From the NCBI GenBank assembly GCA_021163155.1, contig JAGGXI010000007.1, positions 1 through 11,863 on the forward strand: a stretch of 11,863 nucleotides of DNA. The letters run 5' to 3'. The notes beneath the pieces were generated by a model. The model was not told the DNA's origin. It did no database searches and was given only the letters and a program-made list of their open reading frames with translations. The stretch is from Candidatus Aerophobota bacterium (GTDB lineage: Bacteria > Aerophobota > Aerophobia > Aerophobales > JAGGXI01). The position numbers and the translations under genes are program-made. Below are positions 2,077 to 11,808 of this stretch, one piece after another (the first letter of the stretch is position 1; the number at the start of each line of letters is the position of its first letter).

Positions 2077-2976
2077 CTAAAACTTAACTGATAAGGAGAT
2101 TCTGTGTGTATCTCCTAAATCCTCATAGGGAACATAGGCGTAATCTATGCTTATATTTTTAAACTTAAAGCCTAAGCCTCCCGTTATTCCAGAGCCGATA
2201 TCCTCTGGTCCACTCTTATAGCCAGCCCTAAGGGCCAGGGTATCTGTAAGGTGACACTCAATACCTGTATGAAAATTTACTTCATTATCCAAAGGCTTAT
2301 TCACATCTAAGGCTAACTTAATCCGCTCATTAAGAAGATAAGCCATGCCTAACCTATAGTTTAAGGGAAGAGGGTCCTCTTCTTCGGTAAACTTCTCTTT
2401 ATTCCCTATATTTTGAACTCCTAAAGCAAAAGAGAACTTTTGTTTCTTGTAAAATCCTCCTAAATCAAGGCCGTAAGATGTTGCTGATTCTTTCTCAAAC
2501 TTCTCCCCAATATACTTTAAACCTGCTCCTAAGGAAAGACTCTCTCCCATCTTACGAGCATAGGCTAAAGTAACTACACTACTTTTAGCCTCAAAGGAAT
2601 TTCCTGTTCCTCCTGGATAAGATAATGTAGTCTCCTCAATCTTTCCTGTATTTAGCCAGTTAATAGATAAACCAAAGGCACTATCCCTATGAGAAGAGAC
2701 ATAGGCCAAATGCTCATAGTTTATCTCTTCCAACCATTGGGTATGAGTAGCTCCCAACTGTGTTCCCTCAATTTGAGTAAGTCCTGCAGGGTTCCAGTAG
2801 ATACTGGTTGCATCGTCAGCTATTGCACTAAAAGCATCTCCCATTGCTGATGCTCTTGCCCCAACTCCAAGCTTAAGACAAGATGCTCCTGTAGTTCCTA
2901 CTCCATCAGCATAGGAGAATGCTCCCAAACCTAATATTAAACTACCTACAAGAATAAATAAGATTATTTTTCGCAT
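2077..2976 (-). CDS. PorV/PorQ-family outer-membrane beta-barrel protein
   Basis: A 299-aa protein. A signal peptide is evident in residues 1-23 (basic MRK, hydrophobic core, SYA-D cleavage region). The mature N-terminus carries the family signature: GVGARASAMGDAFSAIADD followed by ATSIYWNPAGL (about residues 38-65). The rest alternates amphipathic strands with short turns and ends in ISLSVKF, a C-terminal phenylalanine as expected of an outer-membrane barrel. Length fits PorV/PorQ (UPF0164-like) proteins, which are FadL-like barrels of about 300-400 aa. In type IX secretion PorV associates with the SprA translocon and shuttles substrates carrying the C-terminal sorting domain. AAGGAG precedes the ATG, and the gene starts 10 bases after the upstream surface protein that carries such a domain, so they are co-transcribed. 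Whether it is a true PorV or a paralogue cannot be settled from the sequence. Confidence 0.85.
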   Translation of the reverse strand: MRKIILFILVGSLILGLGAFSYADGVGTTGASCLKLGVGARASAMGDAFSAIADDATSIYWNPAGLTQIEGTQLGATHTQWLEEINYEHLAYVSSHRDSAFGLSINWLNTGKIEETTLSYPGGTGNSFEAKSSVVTLAYARKMGESLSLGAGLKYIGEKFEKESATSYGLDLGGFYKKQKFSFALGVQNIGNKEKFTEEEDPLPLNYRLGMAYLLNERIKLALDVNKPLDNEVNFHTGIECHLTDTLALRAGYKSGPEDIGSGITGGLGFKFKNISIDYAYVPYEDLGDTHRISLSVKF

Positions 2977-2986
2977 TTTTTTCTCC

Positions 2987-4867
2987 TTACCTTACAATTA
3001 CAATCTTGCCTGTTTTCTTCTCGCCTGAGGAGTTAGTGACAAGATAAAGGTAAATTCCACTGGCTAATCTTTCCCCGCCCTTGTTGCAAACATTCCAATT
3101 CCAACTCATCCCAGGATTATTCATCTCTTTTACCAACTCACCATTTAAGGTGTAGATACTGATTTTGGCATCAGAGGTTAAATTACCAAAAGTGATTCCG
3201 CTACACCAACATCCTGTATCTACATTCCCATCATTTGGTTTAAATGGATTGGGATAGACTAAAAGGTTGTTAAGGTCGGATACTGAGGCTGCAGGAATCA
3301 AGGGAGAGCCTGTAGACTCATCTTTTAACATATTAGCCCAGATGATGTTCTCTGCTGCCTTTACTCCTGTGCTTGAGCATCTATGCCAGGCGTTATCTTT
3401 AAAGTAATATAAGCCTAAATTCTCTTCAACTACCCCACTTGCTTCAAGCTCCTCATCCGTATAACTCATTTCTACTCTCACTGGCCAGTTTACAGCATCA
3501 AGGTTGCTATAGGTTATATCAATATATTTGAGTAGGGTATTGGCAGGTAAATCTGCTTCTGGATGAGGATTATTATTATAGGTTACTATAGATATTGTAA
3601 CATCTTCATTAGCACTTACAGTAACTGTAGTATCTGAGCCTGAAGGTCCTACTACCTTATGGCTTGTTTCTCCTTTAGAGACACCCTCATTCTTTACTCC
3701 TCCTGCTTTTCCGCTATTATCTAAGGTAGCCATAAAAGTAGATTTACTGATGGATGCTCCATGCAGGGTTGCCTTAACAGGGATAACATAGGTATCATCA
3801 GCCTTTGTGTTGGTAGAAGATAATGTATAACTGACTCTATAAGTTGTCCCTCCAGTTAAGCTGCCTGTTTTTGCTGTAGGACCATTGGAGTCAATATTAG
3901 AAAAGTTAGCGGTTACACTATCAACCTTACCTGTCATAGTAACATCAACATTTATCGTTTCTCCATTCTTATAGATAGTATCTGCATCAGGAGTAGCTGT
4001 TGAGGTAAAGCCAACCATTCCTACTTTAGCTGTTCCCGACTTGGAATCAGATTTAGCTGTTACAGTTGCTGTACCAGAAGTTGCGCTTGAAGTTAAGGTT
4101 GCTTTTGCCTTGCCGCCCGATGTTGTAGCCGAAGATGTAATTGAGCCTAAAGTAGTTGTAAAGCTAACTTTAGTTCCATCTTTAACGAGATTCCCTTTAG
4201 CATCTTTTACAGTAGCTGTAACAGTTGACTTTGCCTTTCCATCAGCAATAAGAGATGAAGGTGAAGGAGAGAGGGTTATGCCTGTGGGGGAGCCGGCACC
4301 AAATACAACTGCAGTAGTTGCTGTAGCTGCAGCTCCATAAGGAGGTGCGGCAGCAGTTACTGTTGCCGTATCAGAAATAGTAGAAGATTTTAGTGTTGTT
4401 GTAGCTTTACCTGTAGCATCTGTATTAACTATAGTGTTTGTGAGAGTACCCTTATCGGCAGCAAAATGGATTTCCATAGAAGGAAGATTACCAATGTCAG
4501 ATGGAACTACCCCCGTAGAATCTGTTATCTGAGCAGTAATAGTAGAAGTTGATGTGCCATCAGCAGTAATGCTTGTTGGAGAAGCTGAAACAGTAAGCAT
4601 AAGATATGGAGTATAAGTTACATTACCGGGAACCTTATCTCCACTTCCAGGACTATGACTTGGCCCATTATTAGCACCCCACCAGTTGTTGGTGGCATCA
4701 ACATCTTCATATGGCAATACCACTTGTACACCAAACTGCGTGTTGTTATAGATGTTGGAGTAGTGTATGGTCACATTCGAAATCTGGCCTTCACACCAGT
4801 CAGATGCACGATATAACAGGACCCCGTCACGACCGTTACCCGTAATGGTCGATCCATGGATGGTCAC
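2987..4867 (-). CDS. 5'-truncated surface protein: beta-helix remnant, Ig-like domains, type IX-like sorting domain
   Basis: 626 aa if GTG 4867 is used. Residues 1-85 are the end of a right-handed parallel beta-helix (PbH1 repeats, ending in TNNWWGANNGPSHSPGSGD). Residues ~90-285 are two bacterial Ig-like (Big_1/invasin type) domains with the ADGTSTSTITA and DGKAKSTVTATVKD signatures. Residues ~286-530 form further beta-rich modules, including a YTDEELEASGV...LGLYYF segment. Residues ~535-626 are a C-terminal sorting domain: LLVYPNPFKP, ISIYTLNGELV, then LASGIYLYLV and KKTGKIVIV, matching type A type IX sorting domains and the related FlgD-like fold. There is no signal peptide. The frame is open upstream only to a TGA at 4915-4913 and already reads beta-helix sequence (VEEVSGKKIDNV), so the start codon is arbitrary and the original 5' part is missing. 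Without export it may be non-functional. It lies 10 bases upstream of the PorV-like gene. Confidence 0.8.
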   Translation of the reverse strand: MTIHGSTITGNGRDGVLLYRASDWCEGQISNVTIHYSNIYNNTQFGVQVVLPYEDVDATNNWWGANNGPSHSPGSGDKVPGNVTYTPYLMLTVSASPTSITADGTSTSTITAQITDSTGVVPSDIGNLPSMEIHFAADKGTLTNTIVNTDATGKATTTLKSSTISDTATVTAAAPPYGAAATATTAVVFGAGSPTGITLSPSPSSLIADGKAKSTVTATVKDAKGNLVKDGTKVSFTTTLGSITSSATTSGGKAKATLTSSATSGTATVTAKSDSKSGTAKVGMVGFTSTATPDADTIYKNGETINVDVTMTGKVDSVTANFSNIDSNGPTAKTGSLTGGTTYRVSYTLSSTNTKADDTYVIPVKATLHGASISKSTFMATLDNSGKAGGVKNEGVSKGETSHKVVGPSGSDTTVTVSANEDVTISIVTYNNNPHPEADLPANTLLKYIDITYSNLDAVNWPVRVEMSYTDEELEASGVVEENLGLYYFKDNAWHRCSSTGVKAAENIIWANMLKDESTGSPLIPAASVSDLNNLLVYPNPFKPNDGNVDTGCWCSGITFGNLTSDAKISIYTLNGELVKEMNNPGMSWNWNVCNKGGERLASGIYLYLVTNSSGEKKTGKIVIVR

Positions 4868-4904
4868 ATTATCGATCTTCTTGCCTGATACTTCTTCAAC
4901 CTGT

Positions 4905-4927
4905 CTACATCTTCATCACCCCCTCCT
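4905..4927 (-). promoter_or_regulatory. orphaned ribosome-binding site and start codon
   Basis: On the minus strand, AGAGGAGG followed by ATG at 4916-4914 is the best translation start upstream of the truncated surface gene. It encodes only Met-Lys-Met before TAG at 4907-4905, and it is one base out of frame with the long reading frame. This looks like the original start region joined to an internal part of the gene by a deletion. Confidence 0.5.
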
Positions 4928-4992
4928 CTTAAAATTAAGAATTGAGAATTAAATTAAGAATTAAGAAAAAGCACCTTGCACTTAGTCCTCGT

Positions 4993-5185
4993 GGGAGGCT
5001 AAAGCCTCCCCTGCCCCCTCGCAGCGTATAAGCACAGGCGGTTACTCCAAACTAAATTCAATAAAAAAAACCGACCTTCATTTCATCAGCATTCATTATA
5101 TGCTTCAGATATTTTGGTCGGTTGCGTTACTGGATCACTCTACCCTAAGACGCCCAGATAATGAGGCAGAGGTCATTTCCCCCGA
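4993..5185 (-). repeat. leader-like structured element, copy 1 (193 bp)
   Basis: About 92% identical to 5768-5961. Reading 5'-3' on the minus strand it has: a G-run (GGGGGAAATGACC); a stem CTCTGCC (5171-5165) with GGGTAGAG (5145-5138) enclosing a 19-base loop; a possible pseudoknot of GCGT in that loop with ACGC downstream; a long terminator hairpin; and a GGGAGGCT/AGCCTCCC hairpin. It ends about 75 bases before the start region at 4916 of the surface gene. The arrangement (structured head, terminator, gene) is that of an attenuated leader. It matches no riboswitch class I can recall. Confidence 0.6.
5063..5123 (-). terminator. intrinsic terminator in leader-like element copy 1
   Basis: On the minus strand AACCGACC (5123-5116) pairs with GGTCGGTT (5076-5069), and the T-run continues to 5063. 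The interior contains a smaller AGCAT/ATGCT-type hairpin. The 8-bp stem plus eight T's is a good rho-independent terminator lying upstream of the surface gene start. Confidence 0.75.
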
Positions 5186-5290
5186 ATTAAATCCGTAATG
5201 TCAAAATCTAAGAAAGTGCAAAGGCAGTAGTTTCTCGTCAATGGACGCGGTAAACTAAATTCCCCAAAAACCTTATACTGCAAAATCTTC
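5186..5290. other. spacer without visible genes
   Basis: Lies between the stop of the 128-aa gene (5291) and leader-like copy 1. A TTGACA on the minus strand (around 5204) has no good -10 box at normal spacing. No gene seen. Confidence 0.4.
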
Positions 5291-5677
5291 CTAACAAACA
5301 ATATCAGCTAAAGTGCGCTCGAATCTTACTATTACTTGAGCAAAGGGAAAGTTGTATTTTATTTGAGCTTCTTGTGAGGAAGTATATGCTGAAAGAGGTA
5401 TTTCTATATTAATTTCTTTATTATCAATTTTGGTTAGATATAAAATTGGATTGTGATTTAAGCAGGCAAGATAACCTTTCCAACCATCGAGAAATTTACC
5501 TTCTCTCGTAGCAAGTACTATTTTCTGACCTTGCTTCTGAAATCTAAAATCTTTAATAACTGTTCCATAAGGATAAAATATAAATATACTAATCCAATCA
5601 ATGATTCTTACTGCTTTAAGACAAGTATCTTCTAATGGAGTAATATTATTTTTATTGTTCATAAGAGTGTTTTCCAT
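5291..5677 (-). CDS. hypothetical protein, 128 aa
   Basis: Unrecognised protein. I prefer ATG 5677, preceded by AAGGGA at proper spacing, giving 128 aa starting MENTLMNNKN. The open frame begins at 5734, but the extra 19 residues are translated from AT-rich filler (AGTTAAGAGTTGAG) that recurs in non-coding form near 4930. The N-terminal region contains an aromatic-hydrophobic stretch, AVRIIDWISIFIFYPYGTVI (about residues 21-40), which could be membrane-associated or a buried strand. The rest alternates charged and hydrophobic residues like a beta-rich soluble domain (IVLATREGKFLDGWKGYL, LYLTKIDNKEINIEIPLSAY, FAQVIVRFERTLADIV). No catalytic motif, zinc site or signal peptide is apparent. The gene is bracketed by the two leader-like repeats, with copy 2 about 90 bases upstream, so it may be controlled by that element. 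A promoter upstream of copy 2 fits a monocistronic transcript. Confidence 0.6.
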   Translation of the reverse strand: MENTLMNNKNNITPLEDTCLKAVRIIDWISIFIFYPYGTVIKDFRFQKQGQKIVLATREGKFLDGWKGYLACLNHNPILYLTKIDNKEINIEIPLSAYTSSQEAQIKYNFPFAQVIVRFERTLADIVC

Positions 5678-5767
5678 ATTATCCCTTAATAATTTAAAGT
5701 TAAGAGTTGAGAAAAAAATACGAAGTTTAAACACTATTTACTATTCACTGGTTTTACGGCTACTATT

Positions 5768-5961
5768 GGGAGGCTGAAGCCTCCCCTGCCCTCTTGCAAC
5801 GTATAAGCACAGGCGGTTACCCCAAACTAAATTCAATAAAAAAAAACCGACCTTCCTTTCCTCAGCATTTATTATATGCTTCAGATATTTCGGTCGGTTG
5901 CGTTACTGGATCGCTCTGCCCTAATACGCCCAGATAATGAGACAGAGGTCATTTCCCCCGA
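5768..5961 (-). repeat. leader-like structured element, copy 2 (194 bp)
   Basis: Direct repeat of 4993-5185 in the same orientation. The conserved stem here is CTCTGTC (5947-5941) with GGGCAGAG (5921-5914). Relative to copy 1 two paired positions change (G-U to G-C and C-G to U-G), yet all seven pairs remain possible. The ACGC/GCGT complement and the terminator stem are unchanged. A TTGACA/TACTAT promoter lies about 45 bases upstream on the same strand, and the start of the 128-aa gene lies about 90 bases downstream. The copies diverge immediately outside the element, so the boundaries are sharp. Confidence 0.6.
5838..5899 (-). terminator. intrinsic terminator in leader-like element copy 2
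   Basis: Minus-strand AACCGACC (5899-5892) pairs with GGTCGGTT (5852-5845), followed by T's to 5838. The inner hairpin AGCAT-(7 bases)-ATGCT is preserved. It sits between the putative promoter near 6005-6034 and the 128-aa gene, so full read-through would be needed to express that gene. Confidence 0.75.
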
Positions 5962-6004
5962 TTAGTAATAAGATAAATAATAAACTTTTAATATCTATTT
6001 ATAA

Positions 6005-6034
6005 ATAGTATAAATCTTTTATAAAAAATGTCAA
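6005..6034 (-). promoter_or_regulatory. sigma70-type promoter candidate upstream of leader copy 2
   Basis: Minus strand: TTGACA (6034-6029), 18-base AT-rich spacer, TACTAT (6010-6005). Predicted start near 5998, about 37 bases before the leader-like element. The -35 box is a perfect consensus match; the -10 box matches four of six positions. Confidence 0.45.
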
Positions 6035-6824: not shown

Positions 6825-7073
6825 ATGCCTCGAATCTATCATAAATGTCATTTTTGTGGTGGGAAAGTATTAGAAAGAAGAATCATAGTAGATTATCGCT
6901 GGGGAGATGAACTAATTGCTGTGATCAAGAATGTCCCCGCTGGAGTATGCCAGATTTGCGGGGAGCAATACTTCAAAGCAGAGATTGTAAAAGAGATGGA
7001 GAAGCTGGTACATTCAAAGGAAAAACCCAAGAAAACAATCCATGTTCCCTTAAGAGAACTGACAGTAGTTTAG
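6825..7073 (+). CDS. YgiT-type zinc-finger (MqsA-like) antitoxin protein
   Basis: An 82-aa protein with zinc-binding pairs C8/C11 (CHFC) and C42/C45 (CQIC) and the family motif NVPAGVCQICGEQYF. The C-terminal part is a basic helix ending PLRELTVV, the same layout as the protein at 137-367, to which it is only distantly similar (roughly 35-40% by eye). The two modules are therefore separate acquisitions or old paralogues rather than a recent duplication. Like the first copy it lacks the helix-turn-helix of full MqsA. The strong GGAGGAG before the ATG lies in the surviving tail of the damaged DUF4258 gene. Expected role: antitoxin or partner of DUF4258, now without an intact neighbour. Confidence 0.85.
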   Translation: MPRIYHKCHFCGGKVLERRIIVDYRWGDELIAVIKNVPAGVCQICGEQYFKAEIVKEMEKLVHSKEKPKKTIHVPLRELTVV

Positions 7074-7183: not shown

Positions 7184-7437
7184 AAATGGGATAAAACTTT
7201 TACTCCTTATTTTCCTTATTTACTTATTTTCCCCATCCACTCATTTACTCATTTACTTATTTACTAAAACCTTACCTCAACGCATATTGATACTCTATAA
7301 GAATAGCAGCTTTTGCTTATATCTACCTTATCTTTAAGATAGGAGCCTTCAATCCCCAATTTCATTGAAAAATTCTTCTCTATTTCATACTCCATCTCTG
7401 TAAATAAGGTATATTTTAAGTTATCTTTGCCAATTAT
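7182..7437. repeat. duplicated sprA 3' region, resident copy
   Basis: Corresponds to 6042-6260. It covers the last 55 codons of the sprA-like gene and 82 downstream bases. The two copies are direct repeats flanking a 921-bp segment (6261-7181) that holds the palindromic element and the second toxin-antitoxin module. Confidence 0.85.
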
Positions 7438-10400
7438 CCCTGGGGAGTAATATTTCTTTTCTGTATCCACATTAACTCCTGATGAAAAGTGCACCCTATC
7501 TTTAAAATATACTTTCCAGTTAAAAATTGGTATTCTTATCTTCCAGGGGAAAAGCACATAATAATCCGCCTTAAGGGTGTAACCATCGGAAGAATCTCTT
7601 AAAATTCTCTCTCTTTCATAATACTCTTCTTTGCTCTGGGTGGAGGTATAATTAAGAGTAAGAGTAAAATTATGAGATTTTTTAAAAATACCTTTCCACG
7701 TTAAAGAAGGCTGATAAGCTATCTTGTGAGATATATTCTCTTTATTGGTTGTTTTTTGAGCGTACTCCAATGTTAAAAGAGAACTTTTAAACGATCTCAA
7801 GGAGAATTTATCTAAAAAAGGAGTTTTTAAGAGGTCGAAATCAAGAGTTATATCAGGCCAGCTTTCAACTTCCGTAATATAAGGGGTTGTTATTCTTATC
7901 TTCTCTTCTTTAAATATACTATAATTAGAGCCAACATCAAGAAAATCAAGGGGCGTCCATATCTCTCTTATACTGAAATTTCTCCTCTCTAAGGTTAATT
8001 TTGTCCTTCCATCCTTTAAATCCGTCTCCTTTAATCCAAGTTGTGAAATGAGGTCTAAGGTGGTAGTAGTGTCTTCATAAATATCCTCTCTCTCTATTTT
8101 ATAAACAGAATAAAATTTAAGGGTATTAAAGAGCTTTAATTTTGGGAAAAATACTTGCATATCTAGAGGAAGACCAAGGTGAGCTTGAGAATGAGTGTAG
8201 ATATCTCTTTTATTATAATTGGATGAGAAGAAACCATTCTCCTTATATCCGCCATCAAAGTTAATATCGGGAGTTAGGTTAAGAAAGCTAACTCGAGAGG
8301 TCAAACTTAATTTCTCCTCCTTTAACTTTGGCATTTTCCCTTCGTTATTTTTTTGATTTATTATATTCTGTGAGTAAGTAGGATTTACACTTAAATTTTT
8401 CAAAGGATTAAAGGGGAGATTGATTCTTAATCTTCTTGCCTCTTCTCTTTTTTGGCCTCCTTTGGAATCAATATCATCTTTATCTATTAACTGATAGCGA
8501 GTTTCAATGGATGAAGGTAAAAGCGAGAAATGATGGGGATTCTCATATTTAAATAGGCCCTCATAGGCCTCTTCTATCTTTCTCTTTTGAGAAGATTGGT
8601 AATCAGTAACGCTATTTTTTTTCTTTAAAATTACCTCAGGCCAGGCAGGGAAAAGAAAATTTACCTCATAATCTTTTACTTCTCTAATTACTTTGCCTAA
8701 CTCAAGACTGCTTAAATCTGTCCCTCGTGTGGATAAAGTATTTTTCTCTTCCTTGCTCCAATTTAAAAAAAGGGGAATGGATTTTGTTAAGGAAAGTTTT
8801 GCTCCTATCCGATTTAGCTGCAGCCCCTGGTTTTTAAGAGGCTCTCCTATAGTGTGGAATGCAGGGTTCATCTCCTTATATTCTGCATTTAAAAAAGAAT
8901 CTCCAGAATCTATTTTTAGTCCTACTCTTTTAGCTAAACCTTTACTTTTAATGACATCGGAGAGGAAAATATCGTCTACATATATTTTCCCTTTTAGTAT
9001 ATCATTTGATTCATTCTTAATTTCTATTCGCAGTTGATTTATATCCTCAAAGGAAGGATTGCCATAAGAGGTAAGATTCTGCAAAGGGACACTTATTAAC
9101 TGCCAGCCATCATAGTTAATTTTACTTTGGGTAGTATAATAATTGCCCCCTTCCTCTACATCAGAACCTATTCGAAGATAAATATTTTCTCCATTTTTAT
9201 CGCCATATATCCAAAAATTTAAGTTTCTATAACAAGAAAAATCTCTGGGATTAATATAGGTCTCTTGAACCCAACCTTTCTGTTGAGGCTCTAAATTGTA
9301 GATTAAGGAAAAAGCCCCTTCTTTTCTCCATTTACTCTCGCTTGTCTTTGACTTTCTATGCATCCTCTCATAGTAATTTCGAAAATTATCATCAGCAAAA
9401 GGATTATACTCGGGATTATCCTCATTATTTACCGCTTTTGTCTCTAAATTGTAACTTTGCCATCGGTTTCCGGTGATTCCAATAAAGGCAAATTTAAGAG
9501 TTCCCGAAAGATTATCGCCTTCAATCCATAGCCGAAGATGCTTAACTAAAGAGCTAACTTCATCCCAGGAAAAGGGTGATATTCCTTCATTTAAGGGTAT
9601 ATCAAGCTTTCTCCATCCTGTCCAATCTTGATAGATTACTTGACTATAAGAGGTATACTTAATATTTAAAGCAGAATTCAACCTTCCATCCCCATTAAGG
9701 TCCTCTGTGTCCAATCTCCCATTACCCTCTCCTATATGCCTTCCCCCTATTTCAATTCCTGTATCCTCACCCGGATTAAGCTTTCCATCGCTATTTCTAT
9801 CCTCCGTATCTAACTTCCCATCTCCATCAGCATCCTCATTAACCACTCCCAGGTCGATATGCATAGTTTCACCGCCTCCATCCCCCTTAACCCAGAGTTC
9901 CAGATAGTTTCTTTGAGAAAGGTCAACTCCTGTAGGAGATATGGCATAAACAACACTATCCCAGTATTGAGAGCCGGGAAAATCATAATTAAGAGCAAGA
10001 ACTCTCTTTTTATCTTTACTCCACTCAGGGTTAATCTCATCACCCGGAATTTCCTCATCTGAAATTTCTATCTCATCTCTTTTATCTTCGGAAACATTTT
10101 GTGGTTTACTGCCTAATTGCCAATTATCTTTACTCATAGATAACTCATCACTAACTTTTGTAGACTCAAAGTCCTCTACCATAGCTCTATCAAAAGTATT
10201 TGGATTATACCTTCCCTGAGCCATTTCTCCAGAAATGGTTAAATTGAGGGGGATTTTCCTTTTTTGGAAGAGGAGGTGAGGAGAAAAATCAAAGTAGGTA
10301 TTTAAATCTATTACTTCATCAGAAGAAGGAGTAGATTCTAATGAAGGAACCTCTCTTGCAGAAAATGAATTTTGAGAAAGAAATGTAGAGCCCAAATGGA

Positions 10401-11808
10401 ATCTCTCGCCGGGATTAAACCCAAGTCTTGCCCCAAGGATGGTAGCTTTTCCACCTCCAAAAGGCATTAACTCATAATTGACCTTAATCTTTGCATCTTC
10501 TGGTATTCTCTCCGGATAAATAAAAGTTAAAAAACCTGAAGGGTAATCAATTATATAATCTGCATCACGTTTTAAGAGCTCCCCATTTAAATACACTCTT
10601 TCACTTTCGGGGATAACATCTGGTTTAAGTATGTAGGTATCTATACTGGATTCATACTCGGTATAAATAGTATAACGATGTATTCGTTGGGGAGGATAAG
10701 CCTGGGGAAAAGGTCTATTCGGCTCAGAAGATAGGGGTTTAGTAATCTTTATAATACCAAAGTCGTAATCTACCTCTACTTCATATTCTGATATTTGGGG
10801 GTTACTTAAATCAAAGAGAATGTTATCATTCAAGTCAAGAATATGCAAAACAAAGTCTTCCCGCTGAATCTTCCTCAAACCTAAAGAGTAGTAATTCTTA
10901 AATTCATACTTATCATAATAGATATCCTGTCCTTTTTTAATCATTCGATAACCTGTACTCGGGTATCTTGTTCCATTTTTATCCTTATAGGCAACGGCAA
11001 TAATATAGTTATCCTTTATATCTTTTTCAAACTTTATTATCCCCTTATCATTGTCAAAAAGATAATCTTCGCCTGGATACTCCTCATCAAAGTATCCCTC
11101 ATAAACATCACCATTTTCACCGCTAACTCTCATCCAGGTTGCAGACCCATTATTAGTGCCATCTTCATCATCTATATACACTTGAGTATTACCTGAGGCA
11201 AGAGGAAGGTGCGAGGAATCGAAATATAATTTGTAATATTTCCCTTTAAGATATACTGTGTCCGATATCTCCTTCTTTTTAAATATTTTTTTTCCTGTAA
11301 ATGTCTTGCTCTCAGAAATTCCTTCTATAACGCTCCCTATTCCTGTTAAACTAAAATCGCCCTCTCTCATCTCTACTTTAGCTCCGAAAAGACTCTTATT
11401 ATAGGCAACAAATTCGGTTCGGGGAAGGTCCAATTCAATATCTCCAAGGAGAGCCTCTTTAACAATCTCTCTTTCCTCTCCTTTATAATTTAAAGAGATT
11501 TTTCTCTGCTCAACTAAAGGAGCAGTATCGTCATAATTTACATCAACAAAAACTTTATTACCCATTTGCCCTTTTGCCTCAAGTTGCAGTTCTTGATTTA
11601 TTTCTGTTTGGGAAGAGGGGTTTTCTTCTAAAATGGTTTCATCTGGATTTAAATAATAGGTTTGCTCATATTTTAGCTCTATTAACTTACGGCCAATGAT
11701 TTTTACCTTTGGTTCAGCAGCATTTATATTTTTAAAGGAAAGAGATAAAAGGAAAGAAACTGAGAAAATTATAGCAATTTTTCGGTATTTTTTAGTTTTA
11801 GAAAACAA
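7264..11808 (-). CDS. sprA: SprA/Sov-like outer-membrane translocon protein, 1514 aa
   Basis: A TTG start with AAGGA seven bases upstream gives a signal peptide (basic MFSKTKKYRK, hydrophobic core, cleavage near residue 30-31, INA-AEP). The family signature is MVEDFE at residues 543-548, followed by DNWQLGSKP, matching the ...DDFEGS...W.LASTP motif of SprA. Around residues 630-950 are two carbohydrate-binding-like beta-sandwich regions (LELWVKGDGGGETMHIDLG; LNFWIYGDKNGENIYLRIGSD; GKIYVDDIFLSDV). Residues 658-712 contain aspartate-rich loops (DADGDGKLDTED, NSDGKLNPGED, NGDGRLNS) resembling calcium-binding repeats. The C-terminal ~550 residues look like amphipathic barrel strands and end VEVRF, a typical outer-membrane beta-signal. 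SprA is the giant barrel of type IX secretion; Bacteroidota members are about 2,300-2,500 aa, so this one is a reduced or divergent version. A duplicate of its 3' end lies downstream at 6091-6258. Assignment to the family is firm; function as a secretion pore is inferred. Confidence 0.8.
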   Translation of the reverse strand: MFSKTKKYRKIAIIFSVSFLLSLSFKNINAAEPKVKIIGRKLIELKYEQTYYLNPDETILEENPSSQTEINQELQLEAKGQMGNKVFVDVNYDDTAPLVEQRKISLNYKGEEREIVKEALLGDIELDLPRTEFVAYNKSLFGAKVEMREGDFSLTGIGSVIEGISESKTFTGKKIFKKKEISDTVYLKGKYYKLYFDSSHLPLASGNTQVYIDDEDGTNNGSATWMRVSGENGDVYEGYFDEEYPGEDYLFDNDKGIIKFEKDIKDNYIIAVAYKDKNGTRYPSTGYRMIKKGQDIYYDKYEFKNYYSLGLRKIQREDFVLHILDLNDNILFDLSNPQISEYEVEVDYDFGIIKITKPLSSEPNRPFPQAYPPQRIHRYTIYTEYESSIDTYILKPDVIPESERVYLNGELLKRDADYIIDYPSGFLTFIYPERIPEDAKIKVNYELMPFGGGKATILGARLGFNPGERFHLGSTFLSQNSFSAREVPSLESTPSSDEVIDLNTYFDFSPHLLFQKRKIPLNLTISGEMAQGRYNPNTFDRAMVEDFESTKVSDELSMSKDNWQLGSKPQNVSEDKRDEIEISDEEIPGDEINPEWSKDKKRVLALNYDFPGSQYWDSVVYAISPTGVDLSQRNYLELWVKGDGGGETMHIDLGVVNEDADGDGKLDTEDRNSDGKLNPGEDTGIEIGGRHIGEGNGRLDTEDLNGDGRLNSALNIKYTSYSQVIYQDWTGWRKLDIPLNEGISPFSWDEVSSLVKHLRLWIEGDNLSGTLKFAFIGITGNRWQSYNLETKAVNNEDNPEYNPFADDNFRNYYERMHRKSKTSESKWRKEGAFSLIYNLEPQQKGWVQETYINPRDFSCYRNLNFWIYGDKNGENIYLRIGSDVEEGGNYYTTQSKINYDGWQLISVPLQNLTSYGNPSFEDINQLRIEIKNESNDILKGKIYVDDIFLSDVIKSKGLAKRVGLKIDSGDSFLNAEYKEMNPAFHTIGEPLKNQGLQLNRIGAKLSLTKSIPLFLNWSKEEKNTLSTRGTDLSSLELGKVIREVKDYEVNFLFPAWPEVILKKKNSVTDYQSSQKRKIEEAYEGLFKYENPHHFSLLPSSIETRYQLIDKDDIDSKGGQKREEARRLRINLPFNPLKNLSVNPTYSQNIINQKNNEGKMPKLKEEKLSLTSRVSFLNLTPDINFDGGYKENGFFSSNYNKRDIYTHSQAHLGLPLDMQVFFPKLKLFNTLKFYSVYKIEREDIYEDTTTTLDLISQLGLKETDLKDGRTKLTLERRNFSIREIWTPLDFLDVGSNYSIFKEEKIRITTPYITEVESWPDITLDFDLLKTPFLDKFSLRSFKSSLLTLEYAQKTTNKENISHKIAYQPSLTWKGIFKKSHNFTLTLNYTSTQSKEEYYERERILRDSSDGYTLKADYYVLFPWKIRIPIFNWKVYFKDRVHFSSGVNVDTEKKYYSPGIIGKDNLKYTLFTEMEYEIEKNFSMKLGIEGSYLKDKVDISKSCYSYRVSICVEVRF

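Follow-up and report, generated by a model that had tools for sequence, protein, structure and literature searches.

The window analysed here, a stretch of 11,863 nucleotides of Candidatus Aerophobetes DNA, carries two long direct repeats, and it raises the question of whether these are regulatory RNA leaders, and of which class, or copies of a mobile repeat that carries a terminator by chance. The repeats themselves are real: copy 1 (4992-5185) and copy 2 (5767-5961) are direct repeats of 193/194 bp with 93-94% identity, consisting of two ungapped blocks (4992-5070/5767-5845, 94% identity; 5063-5185/5839-5961, 93% identity) which are joined by a one-base length difference in a T-tract. With copy 1 as query in its own genome (1.83 Mb, 119 contigs), the best full-length matches are the query (E 3e-97) and copy 2 (E 1e-77), which excludes a chance repeat. 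Contig C85 contains a partial match of 77% identity, and all remaining matches are to the terminal 24-bp palindrome only. The features of the locus, in the order of the minus strand, are as follows.

6007..6034, minus strand: sigma70-like promoter of copy 2, TTGACA-16-TATACT (11/12 matches)
5883..5968, minus strand: c-di-GMP-II riboswitch aptamer, copy 2 (RF01786, 51.9 bits; 88 bits with clade model R1, for which copy 2 was one of the source sequences)
5914..5947, minus strand: main hairpin of copy 2, 8 bp, 5947-5940 with 5921-5914 (Rfam structure line; covariation)
5900..5929, minus strand: pseudoknot of copy 2, GCGU (5929-5926) with ACGC (5903-5900) (sequence; covariation among relatives)
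5838..5899, minus strand: intrinsic terminator of copy 2, AACCGACC (5899-5892) with GGTCGGTT (5852-5845), T-run to 5838 (fold energies)
5768..5791, minus strand: terminal dispersed palindrome of copy 2 (core pattern)
5294..5677, minus strand: gene of a 128-aa protein after copy 2, AAGGGA upstream of ATG 5677 (open reading frame)
5107..5192, minus strand: c-di-GMP-II riboswitch aptamer, copy 1 (RF01786, 57.1 bits)
5138..5171, minus strand: main hairpin of copy 1, 8 bp, 5171-5164 with 5145-5138 (Rfam structure line; covariation)
5124..5153, minus strand: pseudoknot of copy 1, GCGU (5153-5150) with ACGC (5127-5124) (sequence; covariation among relatives)
5063..5123, minus strand: intrinsic terminator of copy 1, AACCGACC (5123-5116) with GGTCGGTT (5076-5069), T-run to 5063 (8-pair stem)
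4993..5016, minus strand: terminal dispersed palindrome GGGCAGGGGAGGCTTTAGCCTCCC of copy 1, outside the riboswitch (~40 matches over the 24-bp stretch)
2987..4909, minus strand: gene downstream of copy 1 that lacks its 5' end; domains: beta-helix, invasin D3/Big_1, type-IX-like sorting (Pfam)
2077..2976, minus strand: downstream gene in the same direction, PorV/UPF0164-like outer-membrane protein (Pfam PorV, 6.5e-12)

Class assignment and covariation

Comparison with Rfam assigns the element to a known class. Both copies align with the entire RF01786 (c-di-GMP-II) model (positions 1-84 of 84; 5192-5107 and 5968-5883, minus strand), and copy 1 exceeds the gathering cut-off of 53.5 bits; copy 2 falls 1.6 bits short of it, yet is 93% identical to copy 1. 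When aligned to the Rfam consensus, the stretches AUGA, UGGGC, CCAGU and GCAACCG are all retained, CAACCG being the conserved core of the aptamer. The stem CTCTGYC/GGGYAGAG that the first-pass annotation had described is present in both copies and turns out to be the main hairpin of the aptamer, including the two changes between the copies (G-U to G-C, C-G to U-G) which preserve the pairing. Likewise, the complementarity of GCGU and ACGC is there and constitutes the pseudoknot of the c-di-GMP-II aptamer, of which the window copies form four of the five pairs. The closing helix P1 comprises ~4 bp in copy 2 and is interrupted in copy 1, with the outer consensus pairs mismatched. By sequence and structure, both repeats are class II cyclic-di-GMP riboswitch aptamers with c-di-GMP as the presumed ligand, and the riboswitch element underwent duplication in the window. 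The match to RF01786 rules out a new riboswitch class, and the earlier view that the class was an unrecognised one proved to be wrong.

A third aptamer, diverged, is located on contig C85 and brings the total in this genome to three, and about nine further aptamers occur in relatives of the same order; the named contigs with close matches are from Candidatus Aerophobetes. The search of candidate-phylum genomes that had been proposed at the outset was carried out with a clade covariance model made from ten members, and yielded 12 aptamers in eight of the 17 genomes of the order. The covariation that had been asked for was found as well: in the ten-row alignment 84.5% of the cells are paired, and 17 of the 22 pairs, those of the pseudoknot among them, show two-sided changes; these counts come from related sequences and support the structure rather than represent independent events. 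None of 500 shuffles reached any of the pair-count measures, and slid controls were all far lower. Covariation is seen in 6/8 pairs of the main hairpin, two-sided changes in 8/11 pairs of the main hairpin together with the inner helix (helices 2 and 3), and, among the relatives, in 5/5 pairs of the pseudoknot (helix 4), where 92% of the cells are paired. A DNA pattern search gave only one match outside Aerophobetes, in Halomonas (L045), which was rejected as due to chance, since it scores 14 bits and is contained in a surE-like reading frame.

Terminator, promoter and downstream genes

As the first-pass annotation had stated, each copy contains a strong intrinsic terminator on the minus strand, with the arms AACCGACC and GGTCGGTT, the latter followed by T8/T9. 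Its fold energy is -33.2 kcal/mol for copy 1 (-21.0 kcal/mol without the 3' arm) and -35.4 kcal/mol for copy 2 (-23.0 kcal/mol), a gain of ~12 kcal/mol over the best fold that lacks this arm; the ViennaRNA folds model neither pseudoknot nor ligand, and these energies compare solely the terminator with folds lacking the 3' arm. Because the terminator loop, which contains an inner hairpin, is 39 nt long, a terminator scan based on a loop-of-3-8 rule listed neither copy. The 5' arm corresponds to aptamer positions 70-77, which comprise the conserved core as well as the 3' strand of P1. The competition between terminator and aptamer that had been suggested is thus upheld, but the arm is not merely adjacent to the aptamer, being made of its core; in the window copies the two pairings need the same nucleotides and are mutually exclusive. 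With aptamer, pseudoknot and adjoining terminator arm, the layout of a riboswitch or attenuator is borne out, and it is highly probable that each repeat represents a complete c-di-GMP-II riboswitch, in which the conserved AACCGACC of an RF01786 aptamer also serves as the 5' arm of an intrinsic terminator.

An arm of the GGTCGGTT type, complementary to the conserved AACCGACC core, is found downstream at 10 of 13 loci and forms 7-9 consecutive pairs, compared with 4-5 in shuffles (shuffle fraction 0-0.025 each). This anti-aptamer arm is followed by a T-run at six loci and by a start codon at three (the genes with a BFN, or bifunctional nuclease, domain of G001, G002 and G008), and in G009 it is a longer perfect hairpin. 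The three loci without the arm are the decayed ones of G006 and G011, where the adjacent genes are missing or disrupted, and the distant one of G029. BFN-domain genes follow the aptamers on the same strand in C85, G001 and G008 according to Pfam, and in G002 as judged by sequence resemblance; other genes in this position encode a family 2 glycosyltransferase (G002), a beta-helix protein (G010) and a type IV pilin-like protein (G029).

Some further loci show features of their own. In G006 (L040, 1501-1588), an aptamer similar to the BFN-type leaders lacks a BFN gene downstream and is convergent to flagellar flgA/flgG-like genes, being either a relic or an antisense-acting switch. In G009 (L039), a strongly diverged c-di-GMP-II aptamer (1501-1586), with pseudoknot pairs that have changed together and a 3' half lying within a ~21-bp perfect hairpin, is located ~1 kb from a c-di-GMP-I-GGC aptamer (2557-2633; 62.1 bits, over the cut-off). 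In G002, two partly decayed aptamers (L051, 164-244; L052, 44-126) have retained the anti-aptamer arm; the gene downstream resembles a BFN gene in one case and that of a pyruvate phosphate dikinase in the other.

Within the window, copy 2 lies immediately upstream of a gene start as claimed, whereas copy 1 does not, since its downstream gene has lost its 5' end. The first in-frame start of the latter gene is GTG 4867, no signal peptide is found, and its match with the beta-helix protein of G010, whose gene likewise follows a riboswitch, covers residues 261-325 of that protein. Between 4867 and 4993, a good ribosome-binding sequence, AGGAGG...ATGAAGATG, remains near 4915 but meets a stop directly. 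The copy 1 locus may be partly decaying, or the 5' truncation may be an assembly error; with the gene truncated, copy 1 may have no functional protein left to control. The 128-aa protein encoded after copy 2, of which remnants exist in G011 and G015, has neither a Pfam match nor a PDB sequence match, and its single-sequence model (mostly beta, low confidence, pLDDT 65) gave no significant fold match; on these grounds, together with the lack of any PilZ match in the genome, we rejected its assignment as a PilZ-type c-di-GMP effector. Elsewhere in the window, 7264-11808 encodes a 1514-aa outer-membrane-like protein for which Pfam gives only a CBM_11-like domain, and which we presume may be a relative of SprA/Sov-type type IX translocon proteins; two small open reading frames resembling YgiT/MqsA-type zinc-finger antitoxins lie at 137-367 and 6825-7073 on opposite strands.

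The sigma70-type promoter noted earlier upstream of copy 2 is indeed near-consensus, although three promoter-like sites were found in the region against 6.6 expected by shuffling, so that the match at copy 2, taken alone, is weak evidence of a promoter. Several relatives, however, also have a TTGACA-type site directly upstream of their aptamer. In the region scan no promoter match was obtained upstream of copy 1, and since only copy 2 has such a match, copy 1 may depend on the promoter of copy 2.

Proposed switching and competing explanations

The sharing of nucleotides by aptamer and hairpin leads us to predict an ON switch: with the ligand bound, neither termination nor masking of the start site should occur. 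At low c-di-GMP, the nascent RNA would rearrange such that AACCGACC pairs with GGTCGGTT and the aptamer is lost, and RNA polymerase would halt at the T-run of the terminator thus formed. At high c-di-GMP, AACCGACC would remain part of an aptamer folded into P1, main hairpin and pseudoknot, the terminator would not form, and the downstream gene would be transcribed. In three relatives, where the anti-aptamer arm precedes the start codon of a BFN gene, it would probably hide the ribosome-binding region and thus act as a translational ON switch. On the basis of sequence, the riboswitches of the window probably let surface-protein genes be transcribed only at high c-di-GMP. Copy 1 probably lies within the transcription unit started at the copy 2 promoter. 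It is then tempting to speculate, albeit tentatively, that a single transcript has two c-di-GMP-II ON switches, each controlling the gene that follows it, and that c-di-GMP directly controls the BFN-domain genes of the phylum, by terminator or start-site masking from the same anti-aptamer arm. If so, the transcript would run from promoter to switch, 128-aa gene, second switch, surface protein and PorV-like protein, and the surface protein would require two independent c-di-GMP decisions.

A mobile or dispersed repeat carrying a terminator by chance, the alternative already considered in the first-pass annotation, might appear attractive in view of the final 24 bp of each repeat, which are GGGCAGGGGAGGCTTTAGCCTCCC, a separate dispersed palindrome with an 18-bp core, GGGAGGCTNNAGCCTCCC, present at 59 places in the genome (4993-5010 and 5768-5785 in the window, and 57 further). 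The palindrome is, however, found elsewhere without the aptamer, and instead of many near-identical copies regardless of genes the genome holds only three aptamers, two near-identical and one diverged. On these two observations a mobile element was rejected, and the aptamers of the relatives, being diverged, covarying and located upstream of different genes, leave this explanation a negligible probability. As for the palindrome itself, the flanks of GGGAGGCTNNAGCCTCCC are partly conserved and often continue as ...CAAAGGGCGACTGAAGTCGCCC, which makes it a candidate REP-like repeat family.

Two other readings accept the aptamers as genuine. The RF01786 scores are moderate and Rfam holds variant families of c-di-GMP-II (PMC12452182), so that the window aptamers could belong to a variant of the class recognizing another cyclic dinucleotide; their best clan match, however, is RF01786 itself and no variant family, all four consensus stretches are kept, and the genome encodes two GGDEF proteins, enzymes which likewise speak against an altered specificity. 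We thus regard such a change of ligand as very improbable. Loss of function through decay of the window locus deserves more weight, given the missing 5' end of the gene after copy 1 and the situation in G011, where the aptamer is degenerate and the homologous gene following it has an in-frame stop. It nonetheless appears unlikely: both window aptamers retain the conserved core, the pseudoknot and the terminator, the differences between them preserve pairing, and copy 2 has an intact open reading frame after it and a promoter upstream.

Relation to known c-di-GMP riboswitches

Returning to the assignment as c-di-GMP-II riboswitches, the window copies resemble RF01786 in their full-length covariance match, main hairpin, pseudoknot, core and location 5' of surface- or adhesion-type genes, but differ in that (i) P1 is short or interrupted, (ii) the aptamer core doubles as terminator arm, and (iii) the host belongs to Candidatus Aerophobetes. 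In Clostridioides difficile, class II riboswitches act as ON switches that control adhesins and pili (PMC11477304; PMC6200980). Those of pilA1, CD2831, CD3246 and cmrRST act at the level of transcription, and the ON direction predicted here agrees with them. In contrast to C. difficile, however, the phylum is another one, the targets include BFN-domain nucleases as well as beta-helix proteins that carry type-IX-like sorting domains, and no group I ribozyme was seen at the window copies. Tandem, or pseudo-cooperative, c-di-GMP-II riboswitches have likewise been described (59 doublets; PMC9481103). The window is similar in having two complete riboswitches on the same strand, at a spacing of 776 bp, but here a gene lies between them, such that successive genes would be gated rather than one stacked leader being formed.

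The literature searched contained no paper joining Aerophobetes with riboswitches, nor one joining the bifunctional nuclease with c-di-GMP riboswitches. While the class is already known, its use in Aerophobetes and some of its target genes appear to be undescribed. The finding points to RNA-based control by c-di-GMP in an uncultured phylum, and among the genes linked to such riboswitches are those of surface proteins carrying type-IX-like sorting domains and, less expectedly, those of BFN-domain nucleases. With no match for a PilZ domain in this genome, riboswitches may be an important readout of c-di-GMP there. Finally, the anti-aptamer arm shared by terminators and start-codon hairpins suggests one switching principle with two outputs.
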